From contig NZ_JACOFN010000002.1 in assembly GCF_028764065.1 (NCBI RefSeq), forward strand, positions 62,001-126,000: a stretch of DNA of 64,000 nt, read 5' to 3'. The translations under genes were made by a program, and so were the position numbers. The notes under the pieces are model-generated. The model did not search any database, was not told the origin of the DNA, and was given only the letters and a program-made list of their open reading frames with translations. How positions within the stretch are numbered: position 1 is the stretch's first letter; the number at the start of each line of letters is the position of its first letter. This DNA comes from Fructobacillus sp. CRL 2054 (GTDB taxonomy: Bacteria > Bacillota > Bacilli > Lactobacillales > Lactobacillaceae). Below, piece after piece: positions 6,197 to 27,945 of the stretch.

Positions 6197-7681
6197 ATGA
6201 AAGTTAAACAAATTATTTTAACCATTGCTGCAGTTTCGTCGTTCGGATTAGCGGCTAATGGATTAAACGTAGCCAGTGCAGATGGTGTTCCATCTGTTGT
6301 CGCAGGACAGTCTGGTTTACCAGCGATGGATGTTGTGGATGTCGCTTCATACCAAGGTAATCTTTCTGTTGATGATTTTAAGGCAATGAAGGCAGCTGGT
6401 ATCAAGGGTGTAATTGTTAAGTTGACGGAATCAACTAACTACACTAATCCTTTTGCACGTACTCAGGTTAATAATGCTCGTGCAGCAGGAATGAAAGTAT
6501 CTGCATATCATTTTGCTCGTTATCGTAGTGCTGATGCTGCTCGTAGTGAGGCAAATTATTTTGCTGATGCGGCCTACAACCTTGGTTTCTCAACCTCCGA
6601 TTTGATGGTTAACGATGTTGAAGATAAGAACATGGTTGGAAATGATGTATCAGGAAACTCAAGGGTCTTTAATGATCAATTGCATTCACGTGGCTTTTCT
6701 GACACTGGTTTATATACCTATACAAACTATAATATGGATCGTTCATTCATGCCAAATAATCGTATTTGGATGGCTTCATACCCATATGAACCTTCATCAA
6801 GTCATTTGTGGAATACGCAATACGGTATGTGGCAGTGGACTTCTAATGCCCATGTAAATGGCGTTTCTGGTACTTTTGATATGTCTATTGATTATACAAA
6901 TATGGCGTCAATTGACTCTGGCTATCGATACGTACCATCAGCTGGTGGATGGCGTTGGGTTGTGAATGGACAGATGTATACAGGATTCCAATATTATATG
7001 GGAACATATTATTGGTTTAATAATGGTGTCCGTTCAGATAACTCTTGGCATGAAGCTTGGGGAAACTGGTATTACACTGGTTCCGATGGCCGAGCATATC
7101 AAGGTCATCAAAAGGTAGATGGTCAAGATCTCTACTTTGGTGATGATGGAACATATAATTTACGCTCTACAGGTTATATTTATGATCGTTCATCAGAAAA
7201 TGGTGGATATCGATGGTATGAAAATGGACACCTGTTTACTGGATTCCGCTATTATATGGGAACATATTATTGGTTTATTGATGGTGTTCGTCAAAATGCT
7301 GGTTGGCGTAGTGCTTGGGGTATGAAGTATTATACTGATGAAAATGGACGCGCTGTTCAGGGTGCACAAAAAATAGATGGTACTTATTATTATTTCGGTG
7401 AAGATAATACGTATTACGAACGTGGTGGGTATTTAGCTGACGGATCATCCTATAATGGTGGTTATCGTTGGTATGAAGATGGTAAGTTATTTACTGGATT
7501 CCGTTATTACATGGGAACATATTATTGGTTTGTCGATGGTGTTCGTCAGAATGCCGGTTGGCGACACGCATGGGGCTTCACTTACTATACTGATGCTAAC
7601 GGTCGCGCTGTGCAGGGTATCCAAACTATTGATGGAAAAACATATAACTTCGGTACTGACGGCACGTATTACTTACGTTAA
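6197..7681 (+). CDS. Secreted GH25 muramidase with three aromatic repeats
   Basis: 494 residues. A Sec signal peptide (1-28, ending ASA) is followed by a GH25 lysozyme domain (about 44-238) that cleaves the MurNAc-GlcNAc bond in peptidoglycan. Seen: DVASYQ with Asp48, VKLTEST, SAYHFARY, NDVED with the catalytic pair Asp140/Glu142, GLYTYTNY and a final WQWTS block. Residues 242-494 are three repeats of 84-85 residues (consensus NGGYRWYENG-x-LFTGFRYYMGTYYWF), the same module found in three other proteins of this island. There is no LPXTG motif, so retention at the surface should depend on the repeats. SD is AAGGAAG. A terminator follows. Confidence 0.9.
   Translation: MKVKQIILTIAAVSSFGLAANGLNVASADGVPSVVAGQSGLPAMDVVDVASYQGNLSVDDFKAMKAAGIKGVIVKLTESTNYTNPFARTQVNNARAAGMKVSAYHFARYRSADAARSEANYFADAAYNLGFSTSDLMVNDVEDKNMVGNDVSGNSRVFNDQLHSRGFSDTGLYTYTNYNMDRSFMPNNRIWMASYPYEPSSSHLWNTQYGMWQWTSNAHVNGVSGTFDMSIDYTNMASIDSGYRYVPSAGGWRWVVNGQMYTGFQYYMGTYYWFNNGVRSDNSWHEAWGNWYYTGSDGRAYQGHQKVDGQDLYFGDDGTYNLRSTGYIYDRSSENGGYRWYENGHLFTGFRYYMGTYYWFIDGVRQNAGWRSAWGMKYYTDENGRAVQGAQKIDGTYYYFGEDNTYYERGGYLADGSSYNGGYRWYEDGKLFTGFRYYMGTYYWFVDGVRQNAGWRHAWGFTYYTDANGRAVQGIQTIDGKTYNFGTDGTYYLR
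6920..7678 (+). repeat. Aromatic repeat array, 3 units (GH25 protein)
   Basis: Units 6920-7171 (84 codons), 7172-7426 (85) and 7427-7678 (84). Each holds the invariant YYMGTYYWF block, a GVRQN-x-GW block, YYTD-x-NGRAVQG and a closing FG-x-DGTYYLR. The first unit is the most diverged (GWRWVVNGQMYTG). Confidence 0.9.
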
Positions 7682-7690
7682 TTAAGCTTT

Positions 7691-7718
7691 AAGCCACTAC
7701 TGAGGTAGTGGCTTTTTC
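7691..7718 (+). terminator. Rho-independent terminator after the GH25 gene
   Basis: Perfect 10-bp stem AAGCCACTAC / GTAGTGGCTT, loop TGAG, then T run. Confidence 0.9.
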
Positions 7719-7748
7719 TTTATAAACATCTAATAGGAGAAGGAATAG

Positions 7749-9680
7749 ATGCGAATTAAAATGTATAAAAGTGGTAAAACATGGGTAACGACCGCGTTGT
7801 TAATAATGGGAATGACAGGTATGATTCAAGCTGGTCAATCTGTTTCAGCGAATGAAAATAATGTTCAAGATGCTGTTGTAAAGATTACCCATCCGGAAAA
7901 TGGATTTCAAACTGTTGATGGTAAACAATATTATTATGAAAATAACCAGCTTGTTACAAATACTCAGAAAAATATTGATGGAAAAATATACGATTTTGCT
8001 GCAGATGGAGTAGCTACTGTTAAAGATGGACTTGTTAAGATTTCCGATCAAGATGGTTATGCTTACTATAAGGAGGGGGTGCGCGTCACTAATCAATTTG
8101 TAACTGTTGATAACAATACGTATTATTTTGGTCAATACGGTGAATCATATTCTGGTTTACATACAATTGGTGCTGATGAATATTATTTTGGAGATGACCA
8201 TAGTTTTACGCTTCGTCGTTCAATTGATAACATTACGATTAATAATGTACCTTATAAAATTGATAGTGAGGGTCGACTAACTGCTATTCATGGTATTTTA
8301 TGGGGATTTGGTGATTCCACAACTGTAGGGTGGAATCCCTACAACGATGGTAGTCATTCTTATGATTACTATGCGGCGCAGGCATTACAGATGCTGTATA
8401 AAAATACTTCTGCTTATTCTGGTACACAGATTGGTCAAGATATGGTCTGGATGACGGATCAAGCTGTTTCTGATCCATCTTTTACTAAAGCAACAGATAT
8501 AGTTATTGCTATGGGTGTTAATGATTCAAACTATGGGAATCAAAATATTAATACCATTGCGCAGATTTTTCAGGATTCAATTCGACGTTTGCACGCAGCC
8601 AATCCCAATATTAAGATTCACATTTTGTTACCACAAGGTGATTTTTTGAATGGGCGTAATAATGACACCATTAATGCAGATGGCTTTTCAATGAATCAGT
8701 TGAAAAATGTTTTGACCATGATTGGCAATAGCATGGGAATCGATGTTATTGATGCAGGAGTTGTAACAAACGAAAATCATAATGAAACGATTCCGGATGG
8801 TGTTCATCCAACAAATGCTACTTATAAGGCAATTGCAGAAAAAGTTGCTTCTGCTATTTTGAACGATAATCAGCAGTATCAAGATAATGCTCAGCACTAC
8901 GATCTAGGAAATGTTTCGGGATATGTAAATACACTTACGGGTTGGCGTTGGCTTGAAAATGGTAAAGCCTATACAGGGTTCCGTTACTATATGGGCACAT
9001 ATTATTGGTTTGTGAATGGCGTCCGCCAAAATAGAGGCTGGCATGAAATTTGGGGACATTTATATTACACCGATGATAATGGTCGTGCGGTGCAGGGAAT
9101 TTATAACATTAATGGCCAAAATTTTGATTTTGGTAATGACGGAACTTATTATATGCGATCGACGGGCTACCTCTATGATGGGTCGTCACAAAATGGTGGT
9201 TATCGTTGGTATGAAAATGGCCAACTTTTCTCTGGATTCCGTTACTATATGGGAACCTATTATTGGTTTGTAGATGGTGTTCGTCAGAATGCTGGCTGGC
9301 GCCAGGCATGGGGGCTTACTTACTATACCGATGAAAATGGCCGTGCAGTTCAAGGAATACAAATTATTGATGGTCAAGTCTATAATTTTGGAACTGATGG
9401 AACATACTATAAGCGGCCAGTTAATGGTTATGTGTACGATGGATCAGCTTATAATGGTGGTTATCGTTGGTATGAAGATGGTCAACTTTTCACAGGTTTC
9501 CGTTATTACATGGGTACTTATTATTGGTTTGTTGATGGTGTTCGTCAAAATGAAGGATGGCGACATGCTTGGGGATACACATATTGGACTGATAAGAATG
9601 GACGAGCGGTACAAGGTGACCAAATAATTAATGGTCAGCATTATTTCTTTGGAACTGATGGAACTTACTATCTTCGATAG
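7749..9680 (+). CDS. Secreted SGNH/GDSL hydrolase with three aromatic repeats
   Basis: 643 residues. The N-terminus KMYKSGKTWVTT is a KxYKxGKxW-type signal peptide (about 1-34). Residues 45-180 are YG-type short repeats (TVDGKQYYYENNQ and similar). An SGNH hydrolase domain (about 181-372) follows: block I GFGDSTT with Ser190, block III GVND (256-259), block V DGVH with Asp350 and His353. Such enzymes remove acyl groups from sugars, polysaccharides or lipids. Residues 391-643 are three copies of the repeat shared by the GH25, GH68 and C39-like proteins. With a membrane acyltransferase 2.5 kb downstream, O-deacylation of the local polymer is a plausible role (inference). SD is AGGAGAAGG; own terminator. 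Confidence 0.88.
   Translation: MRIKMYKSGKTWVTTALLIMGMTGMIQAGQSVSANENNVQDAVVKITHPENGFQTVDGKQYYYENNQLVTNTQKNIDGKIYDFAADGVATVKDGLVKISDQDGYAYYKEGVRVTNQFVTVDNNTYYFGQYGESYSGLHTIGADEYYFGDDHSFTLRRSIDNITINNVPYKIDSEGRLTAIHGILWGFGDSTTVGWNPYNDGSHSYDYYAAQALQMLYKNTSAYSGTQIGQDMVWMTDQAVSDPSFTKATDIVIAMGVNDSNYGNQNINTIAQIFQDSIRRLHAANPNIKIHILLPQGDFLNGRNNDTINADGFSMNQLKNVLTMIGNSMGIDVIDAGVVTNENHNETIPDGVHPTNATYKAIAEKVASAILNDNQQYQDNAQHYDLGNVSGYVNTLTGWRWLENGKAYTGFRYYMGTYYWFVNGVRQNRGWHEIWGHLYYTDDNGRAVQGIYNINGQNFDFGNDGTYYMRSTGYLYDGSSQNGGYRWYENGQLFSGFRYYMGTYYWFVDGVRQNAGWRQAWGLTYYTDENGRAVQGIQIIDGQVYNFGTDGTYYKRPVNGYVYDGSAYNGGYRWYEDGQLFTGFRYYMGTYYWFVDGVRQNEGWRHAWGYTYWTDKNGRAVQGDQIINGQHYFFGTDGTYYLR
8919..9677 (+). repeat. 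Aromatic repeat array, 3 units (SGNH protein)
   Basis: Units 8919-9164 (82 codons), 9165-9425 (87) and 9426-9677 (84). Internal units end in YYKRP or YYMRST, the last in YYLR, the same rule as in the other arrays. Confidence 0.9.
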
Positions 9681-9704
9681 TATATATAGTTTTTAAAAGA
9701 AAAT

Positions 9705-9741
9705 AAAAAAATAAATGGTTTCTTGCCATTTATTTTTTTTT
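9705..9741 (+). terminator. Rho-independent terminator after the SGNH gene
   Basis: A-rich stem AAAAAATAAATGG / CCATTTATTTTTT with a 7-base loop and nine T. Confidence 0.85.
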
Positions 9742-9783
9742 CGATATTCTGTTAAAGTGTTTTAAATAAGGAGAAGTGTAAAA

Positions 9784-9816
9784 ATGTCTAGTAAGAAAGT
9801 ATATGATAAAAAATGA
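9784..9816 (+). other. Decapeptide frame overlapping the start of the GH68 gene
   Basis: An ATG at 9784 follows a strong SD (AAGGAG, about 9770) and encodes MSSKKVYDKK before TGA at 9814-9816. Its stop overlaps the GH68 ATG (9813) as ATGA. The last two codons are a run of six A. One extra A, or a -1 shift on the run, would fuse the decapeptide in frame to the GH68 signal peptide. It may be a leader giving coupled translation, a slippery or variable tract, or the true N-terminus with a one-base loss. Confidence 0.45.
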
Positions 9817-12050
9817 AAAGTAAGTTTATTATCTTTAAAGTGTTAAGTGCCATTATAAGTATTGCTGTGTTGGGTACTGTATACAGTAAACCTGCTGATG
9901 CTAGTTTGCATTATACAAGAGCAGATCTTCGTTCCATTATTGATTCGGTGGGGAATTCTGACTTTCGGGCTCCGCAGGTAGAGACAGATGCCTTAAGAAA
10001 GGATATTACTGGGGTGACCGGGAAGAATCCAAGTGGTCAAACTGTTCGATTAAATGTTGGGGATACTTGGCATATTCAAAATCCAGATGGTACAGTAGCA
10101 AATTATCATGGATATAGACTAGTAGCTGGAATTACATGGTTATCGGACCACAGTACACCATGGTATTATTCAAGAATAGGGCTATTTGCTCAAAAGATTG
10201 GTGATGATCAGGATATTTCTTCTTGGAAGTATTTAGGATATGTCTTTAATGATTTTGGAGAGGGAAAACTAGGTAATTCCGATGTGCCCCTAAATAAGAT
10301 TACTGCAGAGTGGTCTGGTTCATCGGTCTTATTAAATCCAAATGATGATTCATTAAGATTTATTTATACGAACTTTTCTTCAACGGGGCAGTATTTAACA
10401 ACAGCAAAAGTTTCCGTGGTACCGCAAAATGGTAATGATTGGAATTCTGGATTGAAAATCGATCATTCAAAAACAACAGATCATAAAACCGTATTTGGCG
10501 GAGATGGTTCGAAATATGCAAAAGCAGCAACTGGTGGCATTGATAAAACAGCCATGCGTGATCCACATATTATTTATGACAATGGTCAACCATATGTTGT
10601 ATTCCAAGGAAGTACAGGTAGTTCAGCAGATCAGGCCGGGGAAAATAATTTAACTAATCGTCAGTATTATGGTTTAAGTGATGCTGATTATCAACAATTT
10701 GTGAATAAGATAAGAAATCAAAAGGGGAGCGATTTATATACTAGGGTTTTAGAATCAAATAGTACAATTGGAATTATTAAATTAAATTCTGATTTTTCTG
10801 TAAACCAAGTTTTTGATCCTTTGGTTACCTTTAATGGAACCGGAATCGAAATGGAACGTGCAAATATATTTGAAAAAAATGGAAAATGGTATATTTTCGC
10901 AACTAGTCATGGCAGTCATTTAGCAACTCAAAATAAAAAAATTAATCACGGACAAATTCAATATATGTTTGGATTTGTTTCAGACAATGGAATTACTGGT
11001 AATTATAAGCCATTAAATGGTAATGGCTTAGTGCTTGCGAGTGATGATCAAACCGGAAATTGGGAATATTCATTTTTAGTAATACCTAACGATAATAAAA
11101 GCAATCGCTTTATGATTACTTCGTTTTTGAATAATCGAACTTTTGCTCCAAGTTATGAAATGGAAATTAATGGTAATAGTACTAAGATTCTTAATGATAA
11201 AGTTTTTAACCAAGGTGCACTAACACCAGACGGAAAAAGCTTTAAAACAATTCCGCAAAAAAGTCAAAATTTCTCCGGATATCTTGCTGATGGAAGTGCT
11301 GATAATGGTGGATTTCGTTGGTATGAAAATAACAAACTATTTACTGGTTTCCGTTATTATATGGGAACTTATTATTGGTTTGATGATGGTGTTCGGCAAG
11401 ATAATCAGTTCCATGAAGCATGGGGACATTTGTATTATACTGATGCGAATGGTCGTGCCGTGCAAGGTGACCAAGTAATTAATGGACAGCATTATAATTT
11501 TGGTAACGACGGAACATACTATATGCGATCTACTGGATATTTCTATGATGGCTCATCTGAAAATGGTGGGTATCGTTGGTATGAGAATGGTCAATTGTAT
11601 ACTGGATTCCGATATTATATGGGAACATACTATTGGTTTGTAAATGGTGTCCGTCAGAATGCCGGTTGGCGCCAAGCGTGGGGACTTACGTATTACACTG
11701 ATGCGAATGGCCGTGCCGTACAAGGTATTCAGATAATTGATGGTCAAATATATAATTTTGGAACTGATGGTACGTATTATAAGCGCCCTTTGCAAGGTTA
11801 CATTGCTGATGGTAGTGGGTACAATGGTGGTTACCGTTGGTATGAAAATGGTCAGCTTTTTTCTGGCTTCCGTTATTATATGGGAACCTATTATTGGTTT
11901 GTAAATGGTGTCCGTCAGAATGCCGGTTGGCGTCAAGCATGGGGACTTACGTATTATACTGATGCGAATGGTCGTGCCGTACAAGGAAATCAAGTGATTG
12001 ATGGACAACATTATTTCTTTGGAACTGATGGTACTTATTACCTTCGCTAA
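9813..12050 (+). CDS. Secreted GH68 fructansucrase-like protein with three aromatic repeats
   Basis: 745 residues. Signal peptide 1-30 (ends ADA), GH68 catalytic domain about 34-480, three repeats 489-745. GH68 enzymes move fructose from sucrose onto fructan or water. Seen: nucleophile region VGDTW (Asp84), EWSGSS (167-171), transition-state stabiliser RDPH (Asp250), acid/base region IEMER (Glu348), and WEYS and TFAPSYE near the end. Departures from levansucrases: VWDSWP is here VGDTWH, and FEANTG is VFQGSTG (Gln265). The three catalytic acids remain, so activity is possible with altered specificity. The ATG has no good SD of its own; translation probably depends on the upstream decapeptide frame. 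No LPXTG. Confidence 0.85.
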   Translation: MKSKFIIFKVLSAIISIAVLGTVYSKPADASLHYTRADLRSIIDSVGNSDFRAPQVETDALRKDITGVTGKNPSGQTVRLNVGDTWHIQNPDGTVANYHGYRLVAGITWLSDHSTPWYYSRIGLFAQKIGDDQDISSWKYLGYVFNDFGEGKLGNSDVPLNKITAEWSGSSVLLNPNDDSLRFIYTNFSSTGQYLTTAKVSVVPQNGNDWNSGLKIDHSKTTDHKTVFGGDGSKYAKAATGGIDKTAMRDPHIIYDNGQPYVVFQGSTGSSADQAGENNLTNRQYYGLSDADYQQFVNKIRNQKGSDLYTRVLESNSTIGIIKLNSDFSVNQVFDPLVTFNGTGIEMERANIFEKNGKWYIFATSHGSHLATQNKKINHGQIQYMFGFVSDNGITGNYKPLNGNGLVLASDDQTGNWEYSFLVIPNDNKSNRFMITSFLNNRTFAPSYEMEINGNSTKILNDKVFNQGALTPDGKSFKTIPQKSQNFSGYLADGSADNGGFRWYENNKLFTGFRYYMGTYYWFDDGVRQDNQFHEAWGHLYYTDANGRAVQGDQVINGQHYNFGNDGTYYMRSTGYFYDGSSENGGYRWYENGQLYTGFRYYMGTYYWFVNGVRQNAGWRQAWGLTYYTDANGRAVQGIQIIDGQIYNFGTDGTYYKRPLQGYIADGSGYNGGYRWYENGQLFSGFRYYMGTYYWFVNGVRQNAGWRQAWGLTYYTDANGRAVQGNQVIDGQHYFFGTDGTYYLR
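11277..12047 (+). repeat. Aromatic repeat array, 3 units (GH68 protein)
   Basis: Units 11277-11534 (86 codons), 11535-11795 (87) and 11796-12047 (84). Units 2 and 3 share a GVRQNAGWRQAWGLTYYTDANGRAVQG stretch that is nearly identical at DNA level, a good substrate for unit loss or gain by recombination. Confidence 0.9.
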
Positions 12051-12059
12051 AAGAGTTAG

Positions 12060-12090
12060 AGTCGTTGGATTATTTTCCTTCGGCTTTTCT
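12060..12090 (+). terminator. Probable weak terminator after the first GH68 gene
   Basis: AGTCGTTGGA pairs with TCCTTCGGCT, with one T-G pair and a two-base internal mismatch, followed by a T-rich stretch. Weaker than the other terminators in the island. Confidence 0.5.
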
Positions 12091-12159
12091 TTTTATTTAC
12101 TTATATATATAATGAATAGGTTAATAAAATATAATTATTTATTCGTTGAGAGGGATAAA

Positions 12160-13197
12160 ATGAAACGTCGTTATTATTATTTAGATGTATTGAATATCTT
12201 GGCAACATTTGCGGTAGTGATGTTACATTGTTCTGGATTTGCTTTTACTAATTCTTTTGGAGTTCGATGGGATTTTACCGTTATTATTCAAGTGCTTTTT
12301 ATTTTTGCAGTTCCTATTTTCTTGATGATTTCAGCAGCAAATATTTTAAATTATCGAGAACGTGAAACTACTGAAATTTTTTTTAAGAAAAGATTTAAGC
12401 GAATTGCCACTCCTTTTCTTGTTTGGTCTGTGGTTTGGTTTTTTTACTTTAATCATTATGATTGGCATTATTCAATTAAAAATTTAAACACATACAGTCG
12501 ATTATTTGATGGCTTATTGCATGGAACGATTCAGCCAATTTTTTGGTTCTTTTATTTAATTATTGGTTTCTATTTATCCGTTCCTGTTTTAAGTAAGATA
12601 TTCATTAAGGAAAATAAAACTACTATTCAATATTTAATATTATTAAATTTAATTGTAGTAGGAATATGTGGGTATTATTATCAAATTAAGCAACAGCCAG
12701 CTTTATCAATTGAAGGATATTTAAGTATTGGAAGCGCAGGTTCAATTGGAATTTTTTCAATAGGCTGGTATTTACATAACTTTTCTCTAGATTACAAAAA
12801 GAAATTTTTGTATTATTTTGGAGTTACTTCAGCAATTTTAATGATTATGTTGACTATTTACTTGTCACATAAGAGAGGTGAATACCAAAGAAATGTTTAT
12901 AGTATATGGGGAATTATGGGGTTAGCTTGGTCAGCTACGATTTTTGAATTTATTAAGGATAAGTTATTCGATTGGAATCCTAATCAACGTATAAAGACAA
13001 TTCTACGTAACTTGTCTGGCGCTTCTCTTGGTGTTTATGTTATCCATTATTTTTTCGTTGATCATGTTGACCGCTACCATCTAATTGCTAATAATTCATT
13101 ATTGCATTTATTTATTCTACCTATTATTATATGGGCTGTATCAATTAGTATTATTATGCTAATTAAAAAAGTTCCATACTTGAAGAGAACTGTATAA
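12160..13197 (+). CDS. Membrane acyltransferase (acyltransferase_3 family)
   Basis: 345-residue polytopic protein with about ten hydrophobic helices. The N-terminus YYYLDVLNILATFAVVMLHCSG has the family's first-helix pattern with a conserved His (VMLH) and the R-[YF]-x-R-I-x-x-P segment as RFKRIATPFLVW. The C-terminal SLGVYVIHYFF is also typical. These proteins move acyl groups (acetyl, succinyl) across the membrane onto sugars of polysaccharides or wall polymers. The start is ATG 12160 with GAGAGGG upstream; the longer frame overlaps the GH68 gene and has no SD. Single-gene unit with its own terminator, next to an SGNH esterase gene, so a paired add/remove function is a reasonable inference. 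Confidence 0.85.
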   Translation: MKRRYYYLDVLNILATFAVVMLHCSGFAFTNSFGVRWDFTVIIQVLFIFAVPIFLMISAANILNYRERETTEIFFKKRFKRIATPFLVWSVVWFFYFNHYDWHYSIKNLNTYSRLFDGLLHGTIQPIFWFFYLIIGFYLSVPVLSKIFIKENKTTIQYLILLNLIVVGICGYYYQIKQQPALSIEGYLSIGSAGSIGIFSIGWYLHNFSLDYKKKFLYYFGVTSAILMIMLTIYLSHKRGEYQRNVYSIWGIMGLAWSATIFEFIKDKLFDWNPNQRIKTILRNLSGASLGVYVIHYFFVDHVDRYHLIANNSLLHLFILPIIIWAVSISIIMLIKKVPYLKRTV

Positions 13198-13201
13198 AAA
13201 G

Positions 13202-13227: not shown

Positions 13228-13285
13228 AGTAAAGACTTAACTAAATATTAAGACTATATATTGTAAAATATTAAGGATAAGCAAA

Positions 13286-13318
13286 ATGAAATGGATTTCA
13301 ATTTATGCAAGTTGCTAA
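13286..13318 (+). other. Decapeptide frame overlapping the start of wzx
   Basis: The SD TAAGGA (13272-13277) is 8 bases before an ATG at 13286 that encodes MKWISIYASC and stops inside wzx. The wzx ATG (13305) is 27 bases from that SD. The space between also forms an AT-rich hairpin (AAA-TGAAA / TTTCA-TTT with one mismatch, 13283-13304) that ends right before the wzx ATG. Either leader translation or a looped-out spacer could explain initiation. Confidence 0.35.
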
Positions 13319-14747
13319 AAACTATTTATACAATGCAGCCTACCAGTTGCTAAATATTATTGTCCCAATTATTACTCTGCCATACTTGGCGCGAGTTCTT
13401 GGTAAAGATGGAGTAGGTATTGCCTCTTGGACCAACTCATTGGTAACTTATTTTCTGCTTATTGCTTCATTGGGTATCGTTACCTATGGATCACGTGAAA
13501 TTGCCTATATTCATGATGATGAAGAGTTGCGACAGAAAAAGTTCTGGGAAATTCAAATTATCCATTTTCTTGCAGGTGCCGTAGCAGTAGTGCTTTATAT
13601 TGCATTTATTTATGCTGGTGGGGCAATGAACTCTAGAATACATAATAATGAGCTATTCTTGTGGTACCAAATTTGGGTTATCTTTTCAGGTATTCTTGAT
13701 ATCTCATGGTATTTCATGGGATTACAAGATTTCAAAAAAACAGTTTTACGTAATATGATGATTAAACTGTTAATGACTGTTTTGATTTTTGTTTTAGTTA
13801 AGACACCCAATGATGTTGGTGCTTATATTCTTTTATTAGCGCTCTCTCAAGTTGTTGGTAACCTTTCCATGTGGTTTTATTTAATTGGAAAGTTTAAGTT
13901 TCCAAAGCTTTCTTCCTTGGAGTTCAATGTTCACTGGAAACCTGTTTTCTTAATGTTTCTACCAACGATTGCAACACAGATCTATTTACAATTAAATAAA
14001 ACGATGCTGCCATTCATGACAGGCTCAACTGCTTCTTCAGGTATCTATGACAATGCGGATAAAATTATCAAAGTTTGCCTTGCTCTCGTTACATCTGTTG
14101 GAATGGTGATGCTTCCACGCATGTCGGCGCATTTTGCAGCAGGTGAAAATGAACAAATGAAAAAGGCGATACATTCATCTATGGATTTTGTTTCTGCCAT
14201 TGCCATCCCTCTAGCAACAGGAATCGCAGCAGTTGGCCCAACAGCAATGCTTTGGTTCCTAGGTAGGTCATGGGGAGAAGTTGGGACCGCGTTAGTGTTG
14301 TTGACACCGATTATCGTTTTCATTGGTTGGTCAAATGTTATTGGTAATCAGTTCTTGATTCCTACTAAACGTTTAAATGATTATACGTGGTCAGTTACCT
14401 TTGGAGCGGTATTAAACATCTTCTTAAACTTCTTCTTTATTTATCTTTGGGGAGTGGAAGGTGCAGCCGTTGCAACTGCCTTATCAGAATTGGCTGTGAT
14501 TGGCTATCAGCTAGTTGTTACGCGTCACGATATGCCGATAATGAAGCATTTTGTTGGACTGTGGCGTTATATTGTAGCAGCGGCAATTATGTATGTAGCT
14601 GTCACCGTAGTTGTAGACATGCATGGCATTGGGATTCTCTCAACGTTAATTGAGTCGATTATTGGTGTTATTGTGTACTTACTTGTTTTGGTATTACTAC
14701 GTGCACCAATCCTAAAGCAGTTGAAGGGAACGCTGTTCTTCCGGTAA
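13305..14747 (+). CDS. Polysaccharide repeat-unit flippase (Wzx)
   Basis: 480-residue protein with about 12-14 hydrophobic helices. The N-terminus MQVAKNYLYNAAYQLLNIIVP and ITLPYLARVLGKDGVG are characteristic of RfbX/Wzx flippases of the MOP superfamily, which move undecaprenyl-linked oligosaccharide across the membrane. This is the first gene of the long polysaccharide operon. Family members begin exactly at this ATG, although its SD spacing is unusual. Partners in the operon are the priming transferase, Wzz-like protein and Wzy-like polymerase. Confidence 0.92.
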   Translation: MQVAKNYLYNAAYQLLNIIVPIITLPYLARVLGKDGVGIASWTNSLVTYFLLIASLGIVTYGSREIAYIHDDEELRQKKFWEIQIIHFLAGAVAVVLYIAFIYAGGAMNSRIHNNELFLWYQIWVIFSGILDISWYFMGLQDFKKTVLRNMMIKLLMTVLIFVLVKTPNDVGAYILLLALSQVVGNLSMWFYLIGKFKFPKLSSLEFNVHWKPVFLMFLPTIATQIYLQLNKTMLPFMTGSTASSGIYDNADKIIKVCLALVTSVGMVMLPRMSAHFAAGENEQMKKAIHSSMDFVSAIAIPLATGIAAVGPTAMLWFLGRSWGEVGTALVLLTPIIVFIGWSNVIGNQFLIPTKRLNDYTWSVTFGAVLNIFLNFFFIYLWGVEGAAVATALSELAVIGYQLVVTRHDMPIMKHFVGLWRYIVAAAIMYVAVTVVVDMHGIGILSTLIESIIGVIVYLLVLVLLRAPILKQLKGTLFFR

Positions 14748-14767: not shown

Positions 14768-14809
14768 TAGCGGTTGTGTACAAATAATTTATTAATGGAG
14801 AATGGGGCA

Positions 14810-15442: not shown

Positions 15443-15456
15443 GTTTGGAGAGTAAA

Positions 15457-19451: not shown

Positions 19452-19469
19452 AAAGGCTTGACGGCCTTT
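19452..19469 (+). terminator. Small hairpin after glf, possible attenuator
   Basis: AAAGGC / GCCTTT with a 6-base loop between glf and the next glycosyltransferase. The T tract is too short for a strong terminator. Confidence 0.3.
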
Positions 19470-19499
19470 GTACATATTAAATTAGGGAGAGAAATCATA

Positions 19500-20438: not shown

Positions 20439-20467
20439 AATTTAATTGTTCGAGTAGGAGAAAAATT

Positions 20468-21361
20468 ATGACGAAAACAGTGTCAGCTGTTGTGGTTACA
20501 TATAACCGCTTAGCCTTATTAAAAGAAGTTATTCAAAGTTTACAAAATCAAATTGTTCCAGTTGATCATATTATTGTTGTTGATAATGCAAGTGAGCAAG
20601 ATACCAAGGATTACCTTGAGTCACTTGGTAGTCAGATTGAGTATCTTCGTTTGGAAGAAAACTTAGGTGGAGCTGGTGGATTTAACCGTGGTATTCGTTA
20701 TTTTATGGAAAACACCAATGATGACATGGTTTGGGTAATGGATGATGATACGGTAGTTCATCCTGATACTTTACAGAACTTATTGGCATTTGCTGAAGAA
20801 GAACCTAATTTTGGCTTTTTGGCATCTGATGTACGTTGGACTGACGGACACCGAGCAAAGATGAATCAACCTGCTCCTATGAATCGATTAAAAGTTATTC
20901 CAGAAGATCAAGTTGAACCTATTCAGCTACAAAACGCTACTTTCGTTTCATTGCTATTACGTCGCCAGATTGTTTCTCAAATTGGCCTTCCAATTACAGA
21001 TTTCTTTATCTGGGGAGATGATATTGAATACACGGAACGAGCAGGTCGTGTAGCACCTGGTTATTTTGTACCTTCAGCCAAGGTTACCCATAAGATGGCA
21101 TCTAACGTTGGATCAAGTTTACTTAATGACGGACCTAACCGAACGCCAAGATACTTTTATTCTTACCGAAATAAAGAATATTATATTCGAAAGCGTGGAT
21201 GGTATCGACGTAATCGCGCAAAGGCACGTATTTTAGCAGAATATTGGCAAATTAAGCTATCCAATACTGAGCGAAAAGAAGAAAAATTAGCAACTATGAA
21301 AAAGGGAATAAAAGCCGGTAAAAAGTTTAATCCTGTAATTGAATTTGCGAACAATAAATAA
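20468..21361 (+). CDS. GT2 glycosyltransferase, GlfT2/galactofuranosyl- or rhamnosyltransferase-like
   Basis: 297 soluble residues. Seen: AVVVTYNRLALLKEVIQSL, VVDNAS, NLGGAGGFNRG, the metal site MDDDT and the acceptor-site block WGDDIEYTER. The GGAGGF and WGDD motifs are those of the GlfT2-like group, which often transfers galactofuranose. With glf two genes upstream, transfer of Galf is the best guess, though rhamnosyltransferases share these motifs. The basic C-terminal tail may touch the membrane. Confidence 0.82.
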   Translation: MTKTVSAVVVTYNRLALLKEVIQSLQNQIVPVDHIIVVDNASEQDTKDYLESLGSQIEYLRLEENLGGAGGFNRGIRYFMENTNDDMVWVMDDDTVVHPDTLQNLLAFAEEEPNFGFLASDVRWTDGHRAKMNQPAPMNRLKVIPEDQVEPIQLQNATFVSLLLRRQIVSQIGLPITDFFIWGDDIEYTERAGRVAPGYFVPSAKVTHKMASNVGSSLLNDGPNRTPRYFYSYRNKEYYIRKRGWYRRNRAKARILAEYWQIKLSNTERKEEKLATMKKGIKAGKKFNPVIEFANNK

Positions 21362-21383
21362 TTGTGTCAAAAGGGAGAGAAAA

Positions 21384-22337
21384 ATGGATAAATTAGCGAT
21401 TTTAATTCCTGCGTATAATGAAGAGCAAACAATTGCTAAAGTTGTAAAGGATGTCAAAAATATTATTACAGATATTCCTGATTCTGTAGTTTATGTGTAT
21501 GATAATAATTCAAAGGATAAGACAGTTGAACTTGCTGAAGAAGCTGGTGCTGTAGTTCGCCATGAATATGCTCAAGGTAAGGGCGCTGTTATCCGACGTA
21601 TGTTTAGGGAAATTGATGCAGAAGTCTACATAATGATTGACGCGGATGATACTTATCCTGTAGAAGCAATTCCAGAAATGTATCATAAGGTTATTCATAA
21701 GGGTGTTGATATGGTTGTTGGTGATCGTCTATCTTCAACGTACTTTGAGGAAAATAAGCGTCCATTCCATAATATTGGGAATAGCTTGGTTCGTAAATTA
21801 ATTAATACACTATTTAAAACGAATATCCGTGATATTTTGACTGGTTACCGTGCTTTTTCATATCAATTTGTAAAGACATTTCCTGTTCTATCACGTGGAT
21901 TTGAAATTGAAACAGAAATGTCAATTCACGCGACCGAAAAAAGAATGTTGGTTGAAAATCAAGTTATCACTTATCGTGATCGACCAGAAGGATCTGAGTC
22001 AAAGCTCAACACATATGGTGATGGACTAAGAGTGATAAAAATGGTGATTAATCTTTATCGTGGATATCATCCTTTTACTTTTTATTCTGTTTTTTCACTT
22101 TTATTCTTTTTAACATCTATGATTCTCTTTATATGGCGGGTAATGATACCTTTCTCTGCAGATCATACTGTGCCTAATTTTCCTACGTTAATTGTATCGA
22201 TGATTCTTCTTGTATTATCATTTATTACTTTTTTCTCTGGGTCGATTTTAGCTGCAATTCAAACTAATGATAAACGAAATTTTGAATTAGCATTGGTACA
22301 CGCTGAAGAACAAAAGAAAGCAATAATTAATGAGTAA
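21384..22337 (+). CDS. Membrane GT2 glycosyltransferase, dolichyl/undecaprenyl-phosphate type
   Basis: 317 residues. GT2 domain with AILIPAYNEEQTI, YDNNSKDKT, GKGAVIRRMF and IDADDTYP, then TGYRAFS and SRGFEIETEM as in polyprenyl-phosphate glucosyl- or GlcNAc-transferases. Two hydrophobic helices lie at about 226-250 and 262-290. It could be a second lipid-sugar donor synthase beside the GtrB-like protein. Start at ATG 21384 with AAGGGAGAG; its end overlaps the next gene by 8 bases. Confidence 0.85.
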   Translation: MDKLAILIPAYNEEQTIAKVVKDVKNIITDIPDSVVYVYDNNSKDKTVELAEEAGAVVRHEYAQGKGAVIRRMFREIDAEVYIMIDADDTYPVEAIPEMYHKVIHKGVDMVVGDRLSSTYFEENKRPFHNIGNSLVRKLINTLFKTNIRDILTGYRAFSYQFVKTFPVLSRGFEIETEMSIHATEKRMLVENQVITYRDRPEGSESKLNTYGDGLRVIKMVINLYRGYHPFTFYSVFSLLFFLTSMILFIWRVMIPFSADHTVPNFPTLIVSMILLVLSFITFFSGSILAAIQTNDKRNFELALVHAEEQKKAIINE

Positions 22338-24111
22338 TAAAATGAAAGCTATTTTTAAGAAAATAACACCTTTTCAATTATTGGTAATCCTCATAACAAG
22401 TGTCACCTTATCTTTTTTTAACAGTTTTGCATTATCTGTTTTAAATAATGGTGGTTGGGGCACAATGAAAGGTTCCTTCACACTAAAAAATATTTTTGCT
22501 TTTTGTTTCTTAACAATATTTTTTTCGTTTTTGTCGATTGTTATTATTGAAATTTCGAAAAAAAAATATAGATTTACAAAAGTACCTAATATTTTTAACA
22601 AAGTCAATAATTTCTTCTCTAGTTATAAAAGAACAGCAATATTTTTAATTATTATATGGGGATTTTTTCTTTTACCATTTTTACCAGTAGTATCCGGATG
22701 GGATATTGTGGGATCTTTCCATGAAATGGTTGATACTCGTTCTGCTGATTTTACAAAAAATATTTTTAATATTTATCCTATTGCTAGTTATTTAACTGAT
22801 GGTTCAAGTACCATGTGGACTAATCAACATGGAGCATTTCTTACTGCTTTTTATGCTCTTACATTAAAATACAGCTGGCTTCTTTCAAAATCATTTTTAC
22901 CTGGTTATGTTTTCTTGGGGTTATTTCATTTCTTATTTGCAATATATGCTTATACAAAAGCAATTGTATATTGTGAAAGGAATGTTCAAAACTCGATTTT
23001 AAAAATCATCGGTTTAATTCTTATTATTTTCAATCCAATGATTTTTTTAAATACCATTTCTTTGTCTAAAAATCCTCTATTTGTTAGTTCATTTATTCTA
23101 TTTTTTGTATTAATGTTTGAATTTTATCGTAATAATGGTATTGTGAATAAAATTTGGAATATTAATATGTTTATTTCAGTTCTAATTGGTATTTTAGCTG
23201 TTAAATGGGCATTATATGTGTATCTAATTGTTGGACTTTTATATATTCTTATTTATAAAAAAATTGCTTTAAAGTCTGTAATAATTTCGATTATTTTTCC
23301 TATTGTATTATTTAAAGTTTCTTTGCTTATTCTAGTTCAGCAAGGAGTTGTTTTAAAAGATGACCCAATTGAATCTAAAGGTGTTCAGATACAGCAAGTT
23401 GCACGTTATGTTCATGATGATCCATCTATTCTTACTAAAGATGAGTATCAAAAATTAAATAGAATTTTTGATGTTGATAATATTGGTAATTTATATAGTC
23501 CTGCAATTTCCGATCCGGTAAAGTCTTCTGGTGGTGGTAATTTTAATGACGATAGTAAATTAGGTTATCGTTATAGGACTGTAAAAAAAGGTGACTGGAA
23601 AGAATTTAATAAAGTATGGTTAGATTTAGTTAAGCGTAATCCACAAATTGCAGTTGATGCGACTGTTGCTCAGGTTGGTTCATATTTATCACCATCACAA
23701 CAGCCATTAGCTGACTATGCTTTAACAATGCCTAATGATGTCATTGGACATGGGTATGGAAGTTTATCAATTTCTAAGTGGATATATCATTTTTATCACA
23801 ACAAGATTCGTACTAAAGCAATCTCCGTTGTATTTGATTTATTTACTAATAAGTATGTTGGCTACATACTGCATGGTAATTTTTGGATTTTTATTTTGAT
23901 TTTAATTTTACCGGTTTTTGTAACCTCTATAAAAAAATTAGTATTAGTAATGCCTATTTTGTTACAGATTGTTATTTCTATGCTTTCACCTTTAGCAAAT
24001 TCTGAGAGATATACCTTGGGTATTCTTGCTGTTATGCCGTTAGTCTTGATAATTACTTTTATGAATAGTGATAAAAATTCCATGGTGACAATAGGCCAGG
24101 AGAAAAAATGA
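22330..24111 (+). CDS. Large polytopic membrane protein, DUF6020-like, possible GT-C enzyme
   Basis: 593 residues with about 12-13 hydrophobic helices and two soluble loops. SGWDIVGSFHEMVD soon after the third helix, and TNQHGAFLTAFYAL, resemble the first-loop Asp region of GT-C-type glycosyltransferases and of DUF6020 proteins. A large external loop runs from about residue 335 to 495. It may use a lipid-linked sugar made by the preceding GT2 protein. Family assignment is by recall of motifs, so moderate. Very AT-rich. It overlaps both neighbours (8 and 4 bases). Confidence 0.6.
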   Translation: MSNKMKAIFKKITPFQLLVILITSVTLSFFNSFALSVLNNGGWGTMKGSFTLKNIFAFCFLTIFFSFLSIVIIEISKKKYRFTKVPNIFNKVNNFFSSYKRTAIFLIIIWGFFLLPFLPVVSGWDIVGSFHEMVDTRSADFTKNIFNIYPIASYLTDGSSTMWTNQHGAFLTAFYALTLKYSWLLSKSFLPGYVFLGLFHFLFAIYAYTKAIVYCERNVQNSILKIIGLILIIFNPMIFLNTISLSKNPLFVSSFILFFVLMFEFYRNNGIVNKIWNINMFISVLIGILAVKWALYVYLIVGLLYILIYKKIALKSVIISIIFPIVLFKVSLLILVQQGVVLKDDPIESKGVQIQQVARYVHDDPSILTKDEYQKLNRIFDVDNIGNLYSPAISDPVKSSGGGNFNDDSKLGYRYRTVKKGDWKEFNKVWLDLVKRNPQIAVDATVAQVGSYLSPSQQPLADYALTMPNDVIGHGYGSLSISKWIYHFYHNKIRTKAISVVFDLFTNKYVGYILHGNFWIFILILILPVFVTSIKKLVLVMPILLQIVISMLSPLANSERYTLGILAVMPLVLIITFMNSDKNSMVTIGQEKK

Positions 24112-25766
24112 ATTTAATAAAAAAAATTGAATATAGTGAAAAAGTCAGGTTAGCGCTTATCAATACTATAGTTATAGCTGCTTTTGCCACTCTCTCTTTA
24201 TTACCGGCTTTTATAGGCCATTTTTATAGTCTTTCATTCGATGGTATTTTCCATTTGGATCGTTTTGCAAGCGTTTCTTCTTCTTTTAAAGATGGTAGTT
24301 TACCAACGCTTTTCAATTTTAAATACGCTCCTTCGAATAGCCAACCTGGTGTAGCAATTAATGCTATGTATCCTTGGGTTTCTGGTTTGATATTTATTAT
24401 TCCATCCTTGTTGATTAAGAATCAACTATTGGCATTAGCAATTGGTTTTTTTATTCTAAATGTAATAACAATTGTTAATATTAAGGCGTTAATTTCATTT
24501 TGGACCAAAAAGCCATTGCTTATTTGGTTGGGCGTTATTGTTTATCAATTTAATAATCTTCATTTTATTGATTTATATTCACGCTCAGCTTTTGGAGAAG
24601 CTTTGGGATATGCATGGATGCCATTAGTGATTCTTGGTGTGCTGAAGATTCAAGAAAAGCAAGTATCAGGAACATGGATTCTAGGCCTGGCAGTTGGTAT
24701 GATTATCAATAGCCATGTATTATCTGTTATTTTTGCCGCAGCATTTATACTTATTTTTGAACTATACCAAATCTTTAATAAAAAATTTGGTATGACTCAA
24801 TTCAAATTATTATTTTTTGCTGGAATAATTAGTTTACTTATTGGAATTTATTCACTATATAATATTGCAATTATGTATCTACATGCAAGATTTTTAGAAC
24901 CTGGTCATTTTGTATGTAGTGTAGATCCTGTTCAATTTTTTGACGCTTTATTGCAAAATGATATGAATGAAAAACCATATTGGACATACGGTTTGCCATT
25001 ATTTACCATTCAAATTATTCTTACAGTAATCGCTTGGAATACAAATGAGGGGAAAAACTGGAGGAGTTGGCTTTTTGGAGCTAATGCTATTACCTTAATT
25101 ATTTTTTCATGGTTACCATGGTATAAATTCCAAAATACACCACTTTCTCTTCTACAATTCTTTGCTCGTTTGGAAGTGATGATTGTGTTACTTCTTACTA
25201 TTTCAATTATTCTTTATTTCTTGAAGGATAATAAGCTAACAGTAAAAAAAGTTCTTTACATTGAATTCTTCATAATAATATTTTCAATGTGCGGTACTTA
25301 CCAAATGCACAAGGCTTACAATCAGGTTCCCCAACATCATAATTTAACGTCTAAAAATTATTATGATACGTTAAATACTGCTCCAACTGCGATTGACTAT
25401 TTACCTGTTGATAAAACTAATAATATGTCAATTGGTGTTGGTGAATCAGTAAATATGTTTTCAACTGAAAGCTATAAAGAGTTGGAGAGAACATCTGATT
25501 CAGTAAAATATCAGATTTCTTCAGATAGAGAAAAGACAATTACGCTTCCTGCCGTAATGTATGACGGATTTAAGTATGATATTCTGTTAGATGGTAAACC
25601 TGTTAAGAGCCAAATGACGAATCTTGTAAAAATTAATGTTACCGCTGGTGAGCATTCATTAGTATTGAAGAGTGTTCACTCCCGGAACTATCCTTTATTT
25701 GTAGTTTCTATAGTAATGATGTTTACATCAACATTCTTTATATTTAAAAAGAAAACTAATAAATAA
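24108..25766 (+). CDS. Large polytopic membrane protein, YfhO/PTPS-related type, possible GT-C enzyme
   Basis: 552 residues with about 11 helices, a final external domain (about 425-530) and a last helix. The first loop SFDGIFHLDRFASVSSSFKDG matches the [DE]-xx-FH-x-R pattern of the '6-pyruvoyl-tetrahydropterin synthase related' membrane family and YfhO-like proteins. YfhO itself adds sugars to teichoic acid with a lipid-linked donor. The ATG overlaps the previous stop (ATGA), so it is coupled. Last gene of the polysaccharide operon; a long terminator follows. Confidence 0.62.
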   Translation: MNLIKKIEYSEKVRLALINTIVIAAFATLSLLPAFIGHFYSLSFDGIFHLDRFASVSSSFKDGSLPTLFNFKYAPSNSQPGVAINAMYPWVSGLIFIIPSLLIKNQLLALAIGFFILNVITIVNIKALISFWTKKPLLIWLGVIVYQFNNLHFIDLYSRSAFGEALGYAWMPLVILGVLKIQEKQVSGTWILGLAVGMIINSHVLSVIFAAAFILIFELYQIFNKKFGMTQFKLLFFAGIISLLIGIYSLYNIAIMYLHARFLEPGHFVCSVDPVQFFDALLQNDMNEKPYWTYGLPLFTIQIILTVIAWNTNEGKNWRSWLFGANAITLIIFSWLPWYKFQNTPLSLLQFFARLEVMIVLLLTISIILYFLKDNKLTVKKVLYIEFFIIIFSMCGTYQMHKAYNQVPQHHNLTSKNYYDTLNTAPTAIDYLPVDKTNNMSIGVGESVNMFSTESYKELERTSDSVKYQISSDREKTITLPAVMYDGFKYDILLDGKPVKSQMTNLVKINVTAGEHSLVLKSVHSRNYPLFVVSIVMMFTSTFFIFKKKTNK

Positions 25767-25773
25767 TTTTATA

Positions 25774-25827
25774 AAAATAAAAGGTTTGAGTGTTACTTAC
25801 ACTTAAACCTTTTATTTTATATTTTTT
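25774..25827 (+). terminator. Strong terminator at the end of the polysaccharide operon
   Basis: 20-bp stem (25774-25793 with 25799-25818) with one mismatch, 5-base loop, then an AT-rich tail with a run of seven T. Confidence 0.92.
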
Positions 25828-25860
25828 TATCTTTAACTTTTTTTTTATTTCAATTTTTTG

Positions 25861-25869
25861 TGGTATGAT
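25861..25869 (+). promoter_or_regulatory. Extended -10 promoter of the C39-like repeat gene
   Basis: TG (25861-25862), one base, TATGAT (25864-25869), 37 bases before the ATG. No clear -35. Confidence 0.5.
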
Positions 25870-25905
25870 TGCTAATATATTTCGTTTTTTTCATGGAGAG
25901 AGTAA

Positions 25906-27945
25906 ATGCATAAAAAATTATATAGGGCTGGTAAATTCTGGGTAGCGACGGTAGTTGCTGCTGCCGGAATGACATTTTCGTTCTGCACAGTTTCGGCGGA
26001 TAGTTCAAATATAGATAATTCATCTGCGACTTTAAGTCAATCTAACACTAACGTTAATATACAGTCATCAAGTATTCAAAATGGAAATACTTCCATAAAC
26101 AGTCAATCAACACCGTCTACCCAAAATGTTGGGAATCAAACTAATGTACAATCAAATGTAGCTGAATCTCCACGTGATGCAGCTTTGGCAAAATATGCGA
26201 ATGAACACGTTACTGGATATATTTTTTCACCTGACGTGTCAACTGCTAATGGTGGTTACAATTGGTTTGAAAACGGTCAGCTATTTTCTGGATTCCGCCA
26301 CTACATGGGAACATATTATTGGTTTGTAGATGGCGTTCGTCAGAACGAAGGTTGGCGTCAGGCGTGGGGAATGACCTACTATACTGATGATCAAGGTCGA
26401 GCTGTTCAGGGCCATCGTAATATTAATGGTCAAGATTTCTACTTTGGTGACGATGGTTCATACTTCCTACGTTCAACTGGCTACTTGTTTGATGGATCAA
26501 GCCAGAACGGTGGATACCGTTGGTATGAAAACGGTCAGTTATATACTGGTTTCCGATACTACATGGGAACGTATTACTGGTTTGTCAATGGTGTTCGTCA
26601 AAATGAAGGTTGGCGTCAAGCATGGGGATTAACTTATTATACTGATGCCAATGGTCGTGCCGTTCAAGGAACCCGTGTTATTGATGGTAAAGTTTATGAT
26701 TTTGGTACTAATGGAACCTACTATAGCCGTCCAGTAAACGGTTATGTTTGGGATGGTTCAAGCCAAAATGGTGGATACCGTTGGTATGATAATGGTAATC
26801 TTTATACTGGATTTAAGTATTACATGGAAACGTATTACTGGTTCGTAGATGGCGTTCGTCAAAATGAAGGTTGGCGCCAAGCATGGGGACTAACTTATTA
26901 TACGGATGACCAAGGACGTGCCGTTCAAGGAACACGAGTTATTGACGGTAAGGTATATGATTTTGGAAATGATGGAACCTACTATAGTCGTCCAGTAAAC
27001 GGTTATGTATGGGACGGATCAAGCCAAAATGGTGGATACCGTTGGTATGATAACGGAAATCTTTACACCGGATTTAAGTATTACATGGGAACATACTATT
27101 GGTTCGTGGATGGTGTTCGTCAGAATGCTGGTTGGCGTCAAGCATGGGGTCTGACATATTATACCGATAATAATGGTCGAGCCGTGCAAGGTTGATATTG
27201 GATTAATGGTGGACAATACTTCTTTGGAACAGATGGAAGTTATTTCTTGCGTACAAATAAGTATGTCGCTGATAATGACGGTGTATATTTTGCCGGGGGC
27301 GATGGCCGATTCTTAACTGGTACACAAGGTATCTATGGCCGTACGGTAAACTTCTTTGGCGATGGTCGTTTGAATACCGATGGCTTGAACATTGATTTTC
27401 CACACTGGTCTTTGAATCAAGTTTCATTAGGAGCACCTGAAGGTTGTGAAGGGGTATCTTTCCAAATGGCTTTGTCTGCCAAGGGAAAGCATGTTCCTAG
27501 TTTGCAAGAAATCTATAACCGTATTGGATATGGTGATGGTGTTTCGCCTTATGAAGGATTCGATGGTAACCCATTTGGGGGAGCCCGTTCTTATACGGAG
27601 ACTGTTCTTGCTGCACCTTTGGCTGCAAAGTTGAACAATGCCTTTGGCGTTCAGACACAAGATATTACGGGTGCTGGACCAAACCAAATTTTGGCACAAC
27701 TTCTTTCATGGAACCCAGTTATTTCATATATTCCTTGGGATTTCCAAGTTGGTGCTGGTCGTGATCACTTCCACGTACAGATGATTTATGGCTACCGTAA
27801 CGGTGGCTTCCTTGTTGCTGATCCTTTGCAATATGCACGAGGTGCTAACTATTGGATTTCAACTGGTGAATGGTGGTACCTAAACAGTAACGTACAGCCT
27901 GTTGGATTTGGGGCACCTGCTTCAATGAACGTTGCTGTGATTTAA
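25906..27945 (+). pseudogene. Secreted C39-like peptidase-domain protein with four aromatic repeats, interrupted by an in-frame TGA
   Basis: One continuous frame of 679 codons with a single TGA at 27193-27195. Signal peptide KLYRAGKFWVAT (KxYKxGKxW type), a Ser/Asn/Gln-rich segment (about 35-95), four repeats (104-449), a short YG-type linker, then a C-terminal domain (about 490-679) with GAPEGCEGVSFQMAL and DHFHVQMIYGYRNGGFLVADP. These are the Cys and His blocks of a peptidase_C39-like fold. The TGA falls in repeat 4, whose length including the stop is exactly 84 codons as in other terminal units, so this is a substitution and not an indel. Without readthrough the product ends after 429 residues and lacks the catalytic-type domain. 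SD GGAGAG. Confidence 0.85.
26215..27252 (+). repeat. Aromatic repeat array, 4 units (C39-like protein)
   Basis: Units 26215-26478 (88 codons), 26479-26739 (87), 26740-27000 (87) and 27001-27252 (84, containing the TGA). Units 3 and 4 are nearly identical. Unit 3 has YYMETYYWF, the only change seen in the otherwise invariant YYMGTYYWF block. Confidence 0.9.

Follow-up and report, generated by a model that had tools for sequence, protein, structure and literature searches.

The stretch of DNA described here (the window; 64,000 nucleotides of Fructobacillus sp. CRL 2054) encodes four secreted proteins that share an 86-residue aromatic repeat: a GH25 muramidase, an SGNH hydrolase and a GH68 fructansucrase with three copies each, and a C39-domain protein with four. 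Their genes flank a probable Wzx/Wzy-type polysaccharide locus that contains glf, the gene for UDP-galactopyranose mutase (Table 1). Comparison of gene content and gene sequence across related genomes indicates that the repeat is probably a non-covalent wall anchor, most likely for one type of Wzx/Wzy-made polymer, which would be defined by its Wzy polymerase together with acylation by a membrane acyltransferase (AT3). In the best-supported reading, this polymer type (the Wzy allele plus AT3), and not galactofuranose (Galf), would be the discriminating feature. AT3 is the most informative neighbour of the repeat genes, and it was not mentioned in the preliminary description of the window.

A single repeat unit is predicted to comprise some four beta-hairpins in a solenoid of the choline-binding/YG type, and a row of units would keep a secreted enzyme on the cell surface without a covalent bond. 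The polymer would be carried on the wall and bound by the module, with either the acyl group or a Wzy-made linkage as the recognized feature, and the SGNH enzyme may remove or transfer the acyl group. We offer more tentatively, as a possibility to which we would give clearly less credence, that the repeat is a serotype-specific reader of the AT3 acyl mark or of the linkage that the corresponding Wzy forms, that the enzyme set is re-tagged when the polymer type switches and that the SGNH enzyme edits the same mark.

Distribution of the repeat and its neighbours

We surveyed 397 genomes of the family (40 genera) and 395 genomes of the order at a repeat threshold of E <= 1e-15; genomes, contigs and loci are given below by our own G, C and L numbers. 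The repeat occurs in 23 of the 397 family genomes, which belong to three of the 40 genera (Fructobacillus, Leuconostoc and Weissella), and in two of the 395 order genomes, both inside the same family. Named records add 42 loci from Fructobacillus, Weissella, Leuconostoc litchii and one other Leuconostocaceae. A repeat that was common in genomes without such a polysaccharide locus, the case that the preliminary description had named as speaking against its proposal, was looked for in both surveys and was not found. At loose thresholds the repeat and glf are both present in 13 of 13 Fructobacillus, and a genus-level comparison is uninformative. We call the repeat canonical where its best match reaches E <= 1e-30, as it does in 21 genomes.

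The proposed linkage of the repeat to a Wzx/Wzy-type locus with glf was borne out in all 23 repeat genomes and in three genera. The DNA flanking glf, as far as 20 kb either way or to the contig end if that was nearer, was compared for the 23 carriers and for 25 + 8 non-carriers, two of which (G027 and G305) are cut at glf by contig ends. The nearest repeat gene lies 3.2–8.2 kb from glf in every carrier, and a randomly placed glf was equally near in 1.0–2.4% of draws (five genomes with positions listed). Relatives of the window Wzx, Wzz, Wzy and DUF4422 proteins are found near glf in 23/23 carriers; Wzx, Wzz and Wzy had no match near glf in any of the 28 Leuconostoc/Weissella non-carriers for which both flanks were fetched, all of which have glf. 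The mutase gene itself is present in 23/23 carriers, in 230 of the 374 genomes without the repeat (253/397 overall) and in all 30 Leuconostoc/Weissella non-carriers searched. Galf, or glf as its marker, was rejected as the determinant on these last counts.

When every gene family in 47 glf neighbourhoods was screened, an AT3 ortholog was found in 21/21 neighbourhoods with the canonical repeat and in 0/26 others. AT3 alone separates the two groups fully; the counts at the best threshold are 20/1 for Wzz, 21/3 for Wzy and 21/5 for Wzx. In the eight further non-carriers, including G305 with its cut at glf, AT3, Wzx, Wzz, Wzy, SGNH and the repeat gave no match near glf. Genome-wide, AT3 scores at least 258 bits in 22 of the 397 genomes, namely the 21 canonical-repeat genomes and G106; the next-best AT3 match reaches 147 bits, and the number of genomes with any match at E <= 1e-25 is 49. 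An SGNH domain is found near glf in 15 of the 21 AT3-positive neighbourhoods, in 0/26 others and in 0/8 of the further non-carriers, and it is repeat-free in four Weissella. G106 belongs to another genus, and its AT3 (contig C67, L167–L168) adjoins the genes of five secreted proteins of a KxYKxGKxW-like kind. Two of them are GH25 and C39 proteins, and the others are, by eye, an SGNH protein and two NlpC/P60-like ones; all five share a different aromatic repeat of about 43 residues. Thus, the arrangement appears to recur with another module.

The locus is present in Fructobacillus G002, G007 and G009 with no good repeat match near glf, and no strong repeat was found genome-wide in these three (best E 6e-5, 1.3e-10 and 1.2e-9). 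By eye, their GH25 proteins near glf bear short ordinary YG-type repeats (L118–L119, L120–L121 and L122–L123, respectively), and the GH25 near glf in Leuconostoc G252 (L137–L138) keeps its catalytic domain and has an SH3-like tail. These tails suggest that the binding module has been exchanged on the GH25 gene. As a separate observation, nine of the ten Leuconostoc non-carriers with both flanks (L127–L136, L139–L146) have a pair of open reading frames (ORFs) of about 1175 and 1240 residues upstream of glf, in place of the Wzx/Wzy block.

Coupled replacement of AT3, Wzy and the repeat

On the Fructobacillus housekeeping tree, in which several forks are open, the state with both AT3 and the repeat requires five changes; the gene trees require four for Wzx, three for the priming transferase, two for Wzz and one for Wzy (SH-aLRT 95). 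The sister genomes G012 (positive) and G001 (negative) are the clearest pair: three housekeeping proteins are 95–97% identical, and Wzx (95%), the priming glycosyltransferase (98%) and glf (99%) are about as close, but Wzz is 81%, the catalytic part of GH25 64% and Wzy 58% identical, and AT3 is missing from the negative member. In same-state sisters Wzy identity is 82% (the source genome G000 and G004, its sister on the housekeeping tree) and 95% (G001/G003). A single contiguous transfer is not an easy explanation for G012/G001, because AT3 and Wzy are separated by the genes for Wzx and the priming transferase. The preliminary description had the repeat bind the polymer made at this locus, or the wall that carries it; because the repeat, AT3 and the Wzy allele change together, the idea of polymer recognition gains support, and its emphasis on Galf does not, as glf is found in 253/397 genomes.

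Nevertheless, several points weigh against this reading. The first concern the co-occurrence itself. G106 has AT3 and lacks the canonical repeat, G001 and G003 have a divergent repeat (61–71 bits per unit) and no AT3, and SGNH gave no match near glf in the four Leuconostoc carriers, G144 and G253 (G253 and others being cut by contig ends). The canonical cut was chosen after the gap from 2e-35 to 1e-21 had been seen, the survey holds one genome per species, and some of these are drafts that are 89–93% complete. The second concern the trees and identities. The opposite-state pair G008/G009 is less clean, as Wzx (86%), the priming glycosyltransferase (87%) and Wzz (63%) also differ where housekeeping proteins are 98–100% identical, with GH25 at 54%, Wzy at 55% and glf at 100%; the more distant same-state pair G008/G006 gives 65% for GH25 and 68% for Wzy. 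The independent-pairs test on the glf tree rests on four well-supported pairs, all of which agree, with p = 0.125, not significant alone. The trees for Wzx, the priming glycosyltransferase, Wzz and Wzy and the one for the glf pairs were quick, the former with long-branch warnings, and G005 fills 22% of the columns of the housekeeping tree. The Wzy assignment in the window is sub-threshold (Wzy_C 26.1 against 31.7 bits). Lastly, an unlinked Amidase_5 carrier (see below) tracks AT3 weakly: it bears the canonical repeat in four of eight AT3-positive Fructobacillus, its tail is SH3-like by eye in G005, and the gene was not found in three AT3-positive and five AT3-negative genomes.

Part of the coincidence is explained by block transfer, since AT3 is a neighbour of the repeat genes in both Fructobacillus and Leuconostoc. 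This bears on a rival that we judge unlikely yet worth serious weight, in which the repeat is a general wall anchor that binds peptidoglycan, teichoic acid or lipoteichoic acid, and its link to AT3 and Wzy is hitch-hiking at a shared recombination hot spot. The adjacency, the small number of independent pairs and the concurrent divergence of Wzx and the priming glycosyltransferase in G008/G009 are all in its favour, as is the fold match to choline-binding modules, a superfamily precedent. Such modules bind the choline of teichoic acid. However, a general anchor does not readily account for G012/G001, in which AT3 is missing from one member and Wzy is only 58% identical while the intervening Wzx and priming transferase remain at 95–98%, nor for the Leuconostoc/Weissella genomes without the Wzx/Wzz/Wzy block near glf, which are also without the repeat, nor for G002, G007 and G009, which have no strong repeat anywhere in their genomes.

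Fold of the repeat and candidate ligands

All 13 copies in the preliminary description were recovered at the same positions and with the same distribution over the four proteins. Their pairwise identity is 54–92%, and they score E 5e-30 to 3e-50 against the repeat profile, which was built from 10 of them, so that own-copy scores are partly by construction; at these values the repeat is not due to chance. Consecutive motifs are spaced by 85–87 residues. The aromatic motif YYMGTYYWF, which had been called invariant, is exact in 11 of the 13 copies. A last unit of constant length had been claimed for every array: measured from the aromatic motif, the C-terminal Arg does stand at the same distance in GH25, SGNH and GH68, whose arrays close the protein, but the rule does not extend to the C39 gene, where the array is not C-terminal. 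As described before, no LPXTG-like (sortase) motif was seen in the four proteins. In an alignment of 222 distinct units there is hardly any variation at the aromatic and Gly positions or at three Arg residues (0.99, 1.00 and 1.00), which occupy alignment positions 41, 61 and 85. Arrays mostly hold 2–4 units, with eight in one divergent relative.

With 32 aligned arrays as input, structure modelling of the GH68 array predicts with high confidence a beta-hairpin solenoid (mean pLDDT 94.3, pTM 0.76). Single units match the choline-binding domain of LytA (1hcx_A) over 65 residues at 1.5 Å with a Z-score of 10.4; GtfD, Pce, CbpF and clostridial toxin repeat domains score similarly, and CbpJ is also a structural neighbour. 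The root-mean-square deviation from these neighbours is 1.5–3 Å for single units and 7–15 Å for the whole array. The repeat profile matches 38 distinct sequences in the PDB, all named as clostridial toxin repeat domains or GH70 enzymes. By predicted fold the repeat thus belongs to the choline-binding/CW-binding/YG solenoid superfamily, yet it fails the curated score tests of the named families. Choline_bind_3 (PF19127) gives 22.4, 26.7 and 17.1 bits for the GH25, SGNH and GH68 proteins, all below the gathering cut-off of 27, with no match listed for the C39 protein. Four of the 19 relatives scanned pass this cut-off (L005, L018, L012 and L039), and three of these four also hold ordinary YG repeats by eye. 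NCBIfam TIGR04035 (glucan_65_rpt) gives 44.7, 44.8, 37.1 and 31.8 bits for the window proteins against a curated cut-off of 147.7, and its best matching stretches cover profile positions 1–29 or 2–29 of 64 only.

The choline-binding modules (CW_binding_1/Choline_bind_3) of LytA, CbpF, Pce and LytC resemble the repeat in their beta-hairpin solenoid, predicted for the repeat, in their presence on unrelated wall enzymes and in the absence of LPXTG. The repeat differs in that the window proteins score 17–27 bits against the family cut-off of 27, that it has about four hairpins per 86 residues and that it tracks the Wzy polymer type.

The YG/A-repeat glucan-binding domains of GH70 enzymes are of the same superfamily, match the profile in part and co-occur with the repeat in some GH70 proteins (TIGR04035; PMC11299179, as far as consulted). 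Solenoid repeats of GH70 and related enzymes are described in the consulted sections of PMC11299179 and PMC12849098. A TIGR04035/YG annotation would suggest that the repeat binds dextran or another alpha-glucan, and the partial glucan_65_rpt matches, the GH70 enzymes among the PDB matches and the presence of the repeat on three GH70 proteins among the named loci, beside YG/A-repeats in some, all point that way. We nevertheless consider glucan binding improbable: the matches are sub-threshold and span at most 29 of 64 positions, many carriers are peptidoglycan hydrolases, and GH70 exceeds its cut-off in eight of the 23 carriers and was not found in the other 15, the source genome included. GH70-made alpha-glucan is therefore unlikely as a necessary ligand, and dextran, which the preliminary description had named among the ligands that would speak against its proposal, was judged unlikely in that role on the same count.

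Fructan has also to be weighed, as the repeat might help GH68 to hold or extend levan, with the other enzymes recruited to matrix levan. GH68 carriers occur in Fructobacillus and Leuconostoc, and truncation of the terminal domains of LevS changes its stability and transfer activity, according to the consulted part of that study (PMC9142893). However, no GH68 match was seen in any of the nine Weissella carriers within the stretches compared, which extend at most 20 kb to either side of glf and to which this search was confined, and we regard fructan binding as very improbable.

Gene layout, carrier enzymes and related systems

The features of the window are collected in Table 1. AT3 lies between the repeat genes and Wzx; its mechanical ORF begins at 11998, and most relatives align from about residue 43–59. 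The SGNH protein carries a KxYKxGKxW_sig signal (33.7 bits, cut-off 23.6), and the C39 protein scores 19.8 bits, below that cut-off. GH25, SGNH and GH68 all seem to retain their catalytic motifs, which in SGNH are GDS, GVND and DGVH. In the C39 gene an in-frame TGA at 27193–27195 falls inside the fourth repeat and, as sequenced, puts the repeats and the C39 domain into different ORFs; full-length relatives of this protein are present in other Fructobacillus (e.g. L006). The membrane-protein-like ORFs at 22330–24111 and 24108–25766 were assigned by eye and have no NCBIfam match. Relatives of the small ORF at 5661–6170 stand beside GH25 in 13/13 Fructobacillus and in three of four Leuconostoc carriers (in the remaining one the stretch stops at GH25); the identity of this ORF is 34% in G008/G009 and 80% in G012/G001.

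Table 1. Features in and around the repeat genes of the window.
Feature	Coordinates	Strand	Basis and remarks
PAP2 phosphatase	4685-5596	+	Pfam PAP2 62.3 bits, cut-off 27.2; upstream of GH25
Small Ser/Thr-rich secreted/lipoprotein-like ORF	5661-6170	+	No Pfam match; upstream of GH25
GH25 muramidase	6197..7681	+	Pfam Glyco_hydro_25 142.4 bits, cut-off 27; signal peptide by eye
GH25 repeats, C-terminal, 3	6908-7165, 7166-7423, 7421-7678	+	
SGNH/GDSL hydrolase	7749..9680	+	Lipase_GDSL_2 53.3 bits, cut-off 32.9
SGNH repeats, C-terminal, 3	8901-9158, 9159-9416, 9420-9677	+	
GH68 fructansucrase	9813..12050	+	Glyco_hydro_68 210.4 bits, cut-off 27
GH68 repeats, C-terminal, 3 (protein residues 487-745)	11271-11528, 11529-11786, 11790-12047	+	
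AT3 membrane acyltransferase	12160..13197	+	Pfam Acyl_transf_3 109.8 bits, cut-off 31
Wzx flippase	13305..14747	+	Polysacc_synt 101.1 bits, cut-off 28.2
Priming glycosyltransferase	14774..15442	+	Bac_transf 198.4 bits, cut-off 27
Wzz chain-length protein	15445..16080	+	Wzz 37.9 bits, cut-off 25.5
Probable Wzy polymerase	16090..17481	+	Position and weak match (Wzy_C 26.1 bits, below cut-off 31.7)
DUF4422 protein, probable glycosyltransferase	17481..18251	+	DUF4422 260.6 bits
UDP-galactopyranose mutase (glf)	18251..19441	+	GLF 275.5 bits, cut-off 26.3
Three GT2 glycosyltransferases and two large membrane-protein-like ORFs	19458..25766	+	
C39-domain repeat protein	25906..27945	+	C-terminal Peptidase_C39_2 43.6 bits, cut-off 24
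C39 protein repeats, 4	26215-26472, 26473-26730, 26734-26991, 26995-27252	+	
Second GH68 gene, repeat-free	27997..29640	+	Interrupted by in-frame TAG 28486-28488

The four window proteins had been described as one remodelling set, which proves too narrow. The whole genome (1.33 Mb, 27 contigs) holds 16 repeat copies, and the three outside the window are on a fifth carrier, an Amidase_5 protein (L001 2539–4047, contig C5 of G000). This contig differs from that of the glf locus, and its neighbouring genes are housekeeping ones, read by eye as tsf, pyrH and frr; the set is accordingly not limited to the locus. A second Amidase_5 paralogue, present in 13/13 Fructobacillus, gave no repeat match in any of its 13 sequences, of which one is a fragment of 135 residues. 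Among 70 carrier ORFs in L001–L043, 19 representatives were scanned for domains: 14 contain an enzyme domain (GH25, Amidase_5, NlpC/P60, glucosaminidase, C39_2, GDSL, GH68 or GH70), and none was recognized in the other five. Relatives thus add NlpC/P60, glucosaminidase and GH70 to the set, and the C39 member is interrupted in this genome. One carrier, the 1189-residue ORF at L005 4953–8522, starts with some 600 residues that match nothing in Pfam, after which come choline-binding-type repeats together with three canonical ones.

The GH68 genes near glf in Leuconostoc bear three repeats and in this resemble the multidomain fructansucrases LevS, LevC, LevL and IslA, whose C-terminal domains may, judged from published descriptions, be the same domain. 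In the parts of the literature consulted, the LevS C-terminal domain has 254 residues, about three repeat units (PMC9142893); fructansucrase C-terminal domains are labelled as glucan-binding, choline-binding or GW-type regions, with the ligand left open in those parts; and L. mesenteroides ATCC 8293 has three fructansucrase genes (PMC10177778). A levan–heteropolysaccharide cluster of Leuc. mesenteroides includes levansucrases to which choline-binding and glucan-binding domains were assigned (PMC12215647, in part). The IslA C-terminus binds cells, the context being citreum cells grown without sucrose, and the consulted text states that 'the actual mechanism of protein-cell interaction is still unknown' (PMC2270844).

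OatA and its relatives are AT3/SGNH acylation systems. The window is alike in having a membrane AT3 and a secreted SGNH protein at one locus; it differs in that the two are separate genes and in that SGNH bears the anchor repeats. In the literature searched, no paper linking the repeat to an acyltransferase was found, nor were the letters of its motif.

The analysis provides a candidate ligand, one Wzy polymer type, and two genes (wzy and AT3) that are predicted to be essential for binding. It bears on what holds Leuconostoc fructansucrases to the cell, a question open since the IslA study (PMC2270844, as consulted). If the reading is correct, the wall-binding repeats of these food bacteria would be matched to polymer type, so that the type could be read from the repeat sequence, and the repeat could serve in cell-surface display as a tag that is specific to a single polymer.

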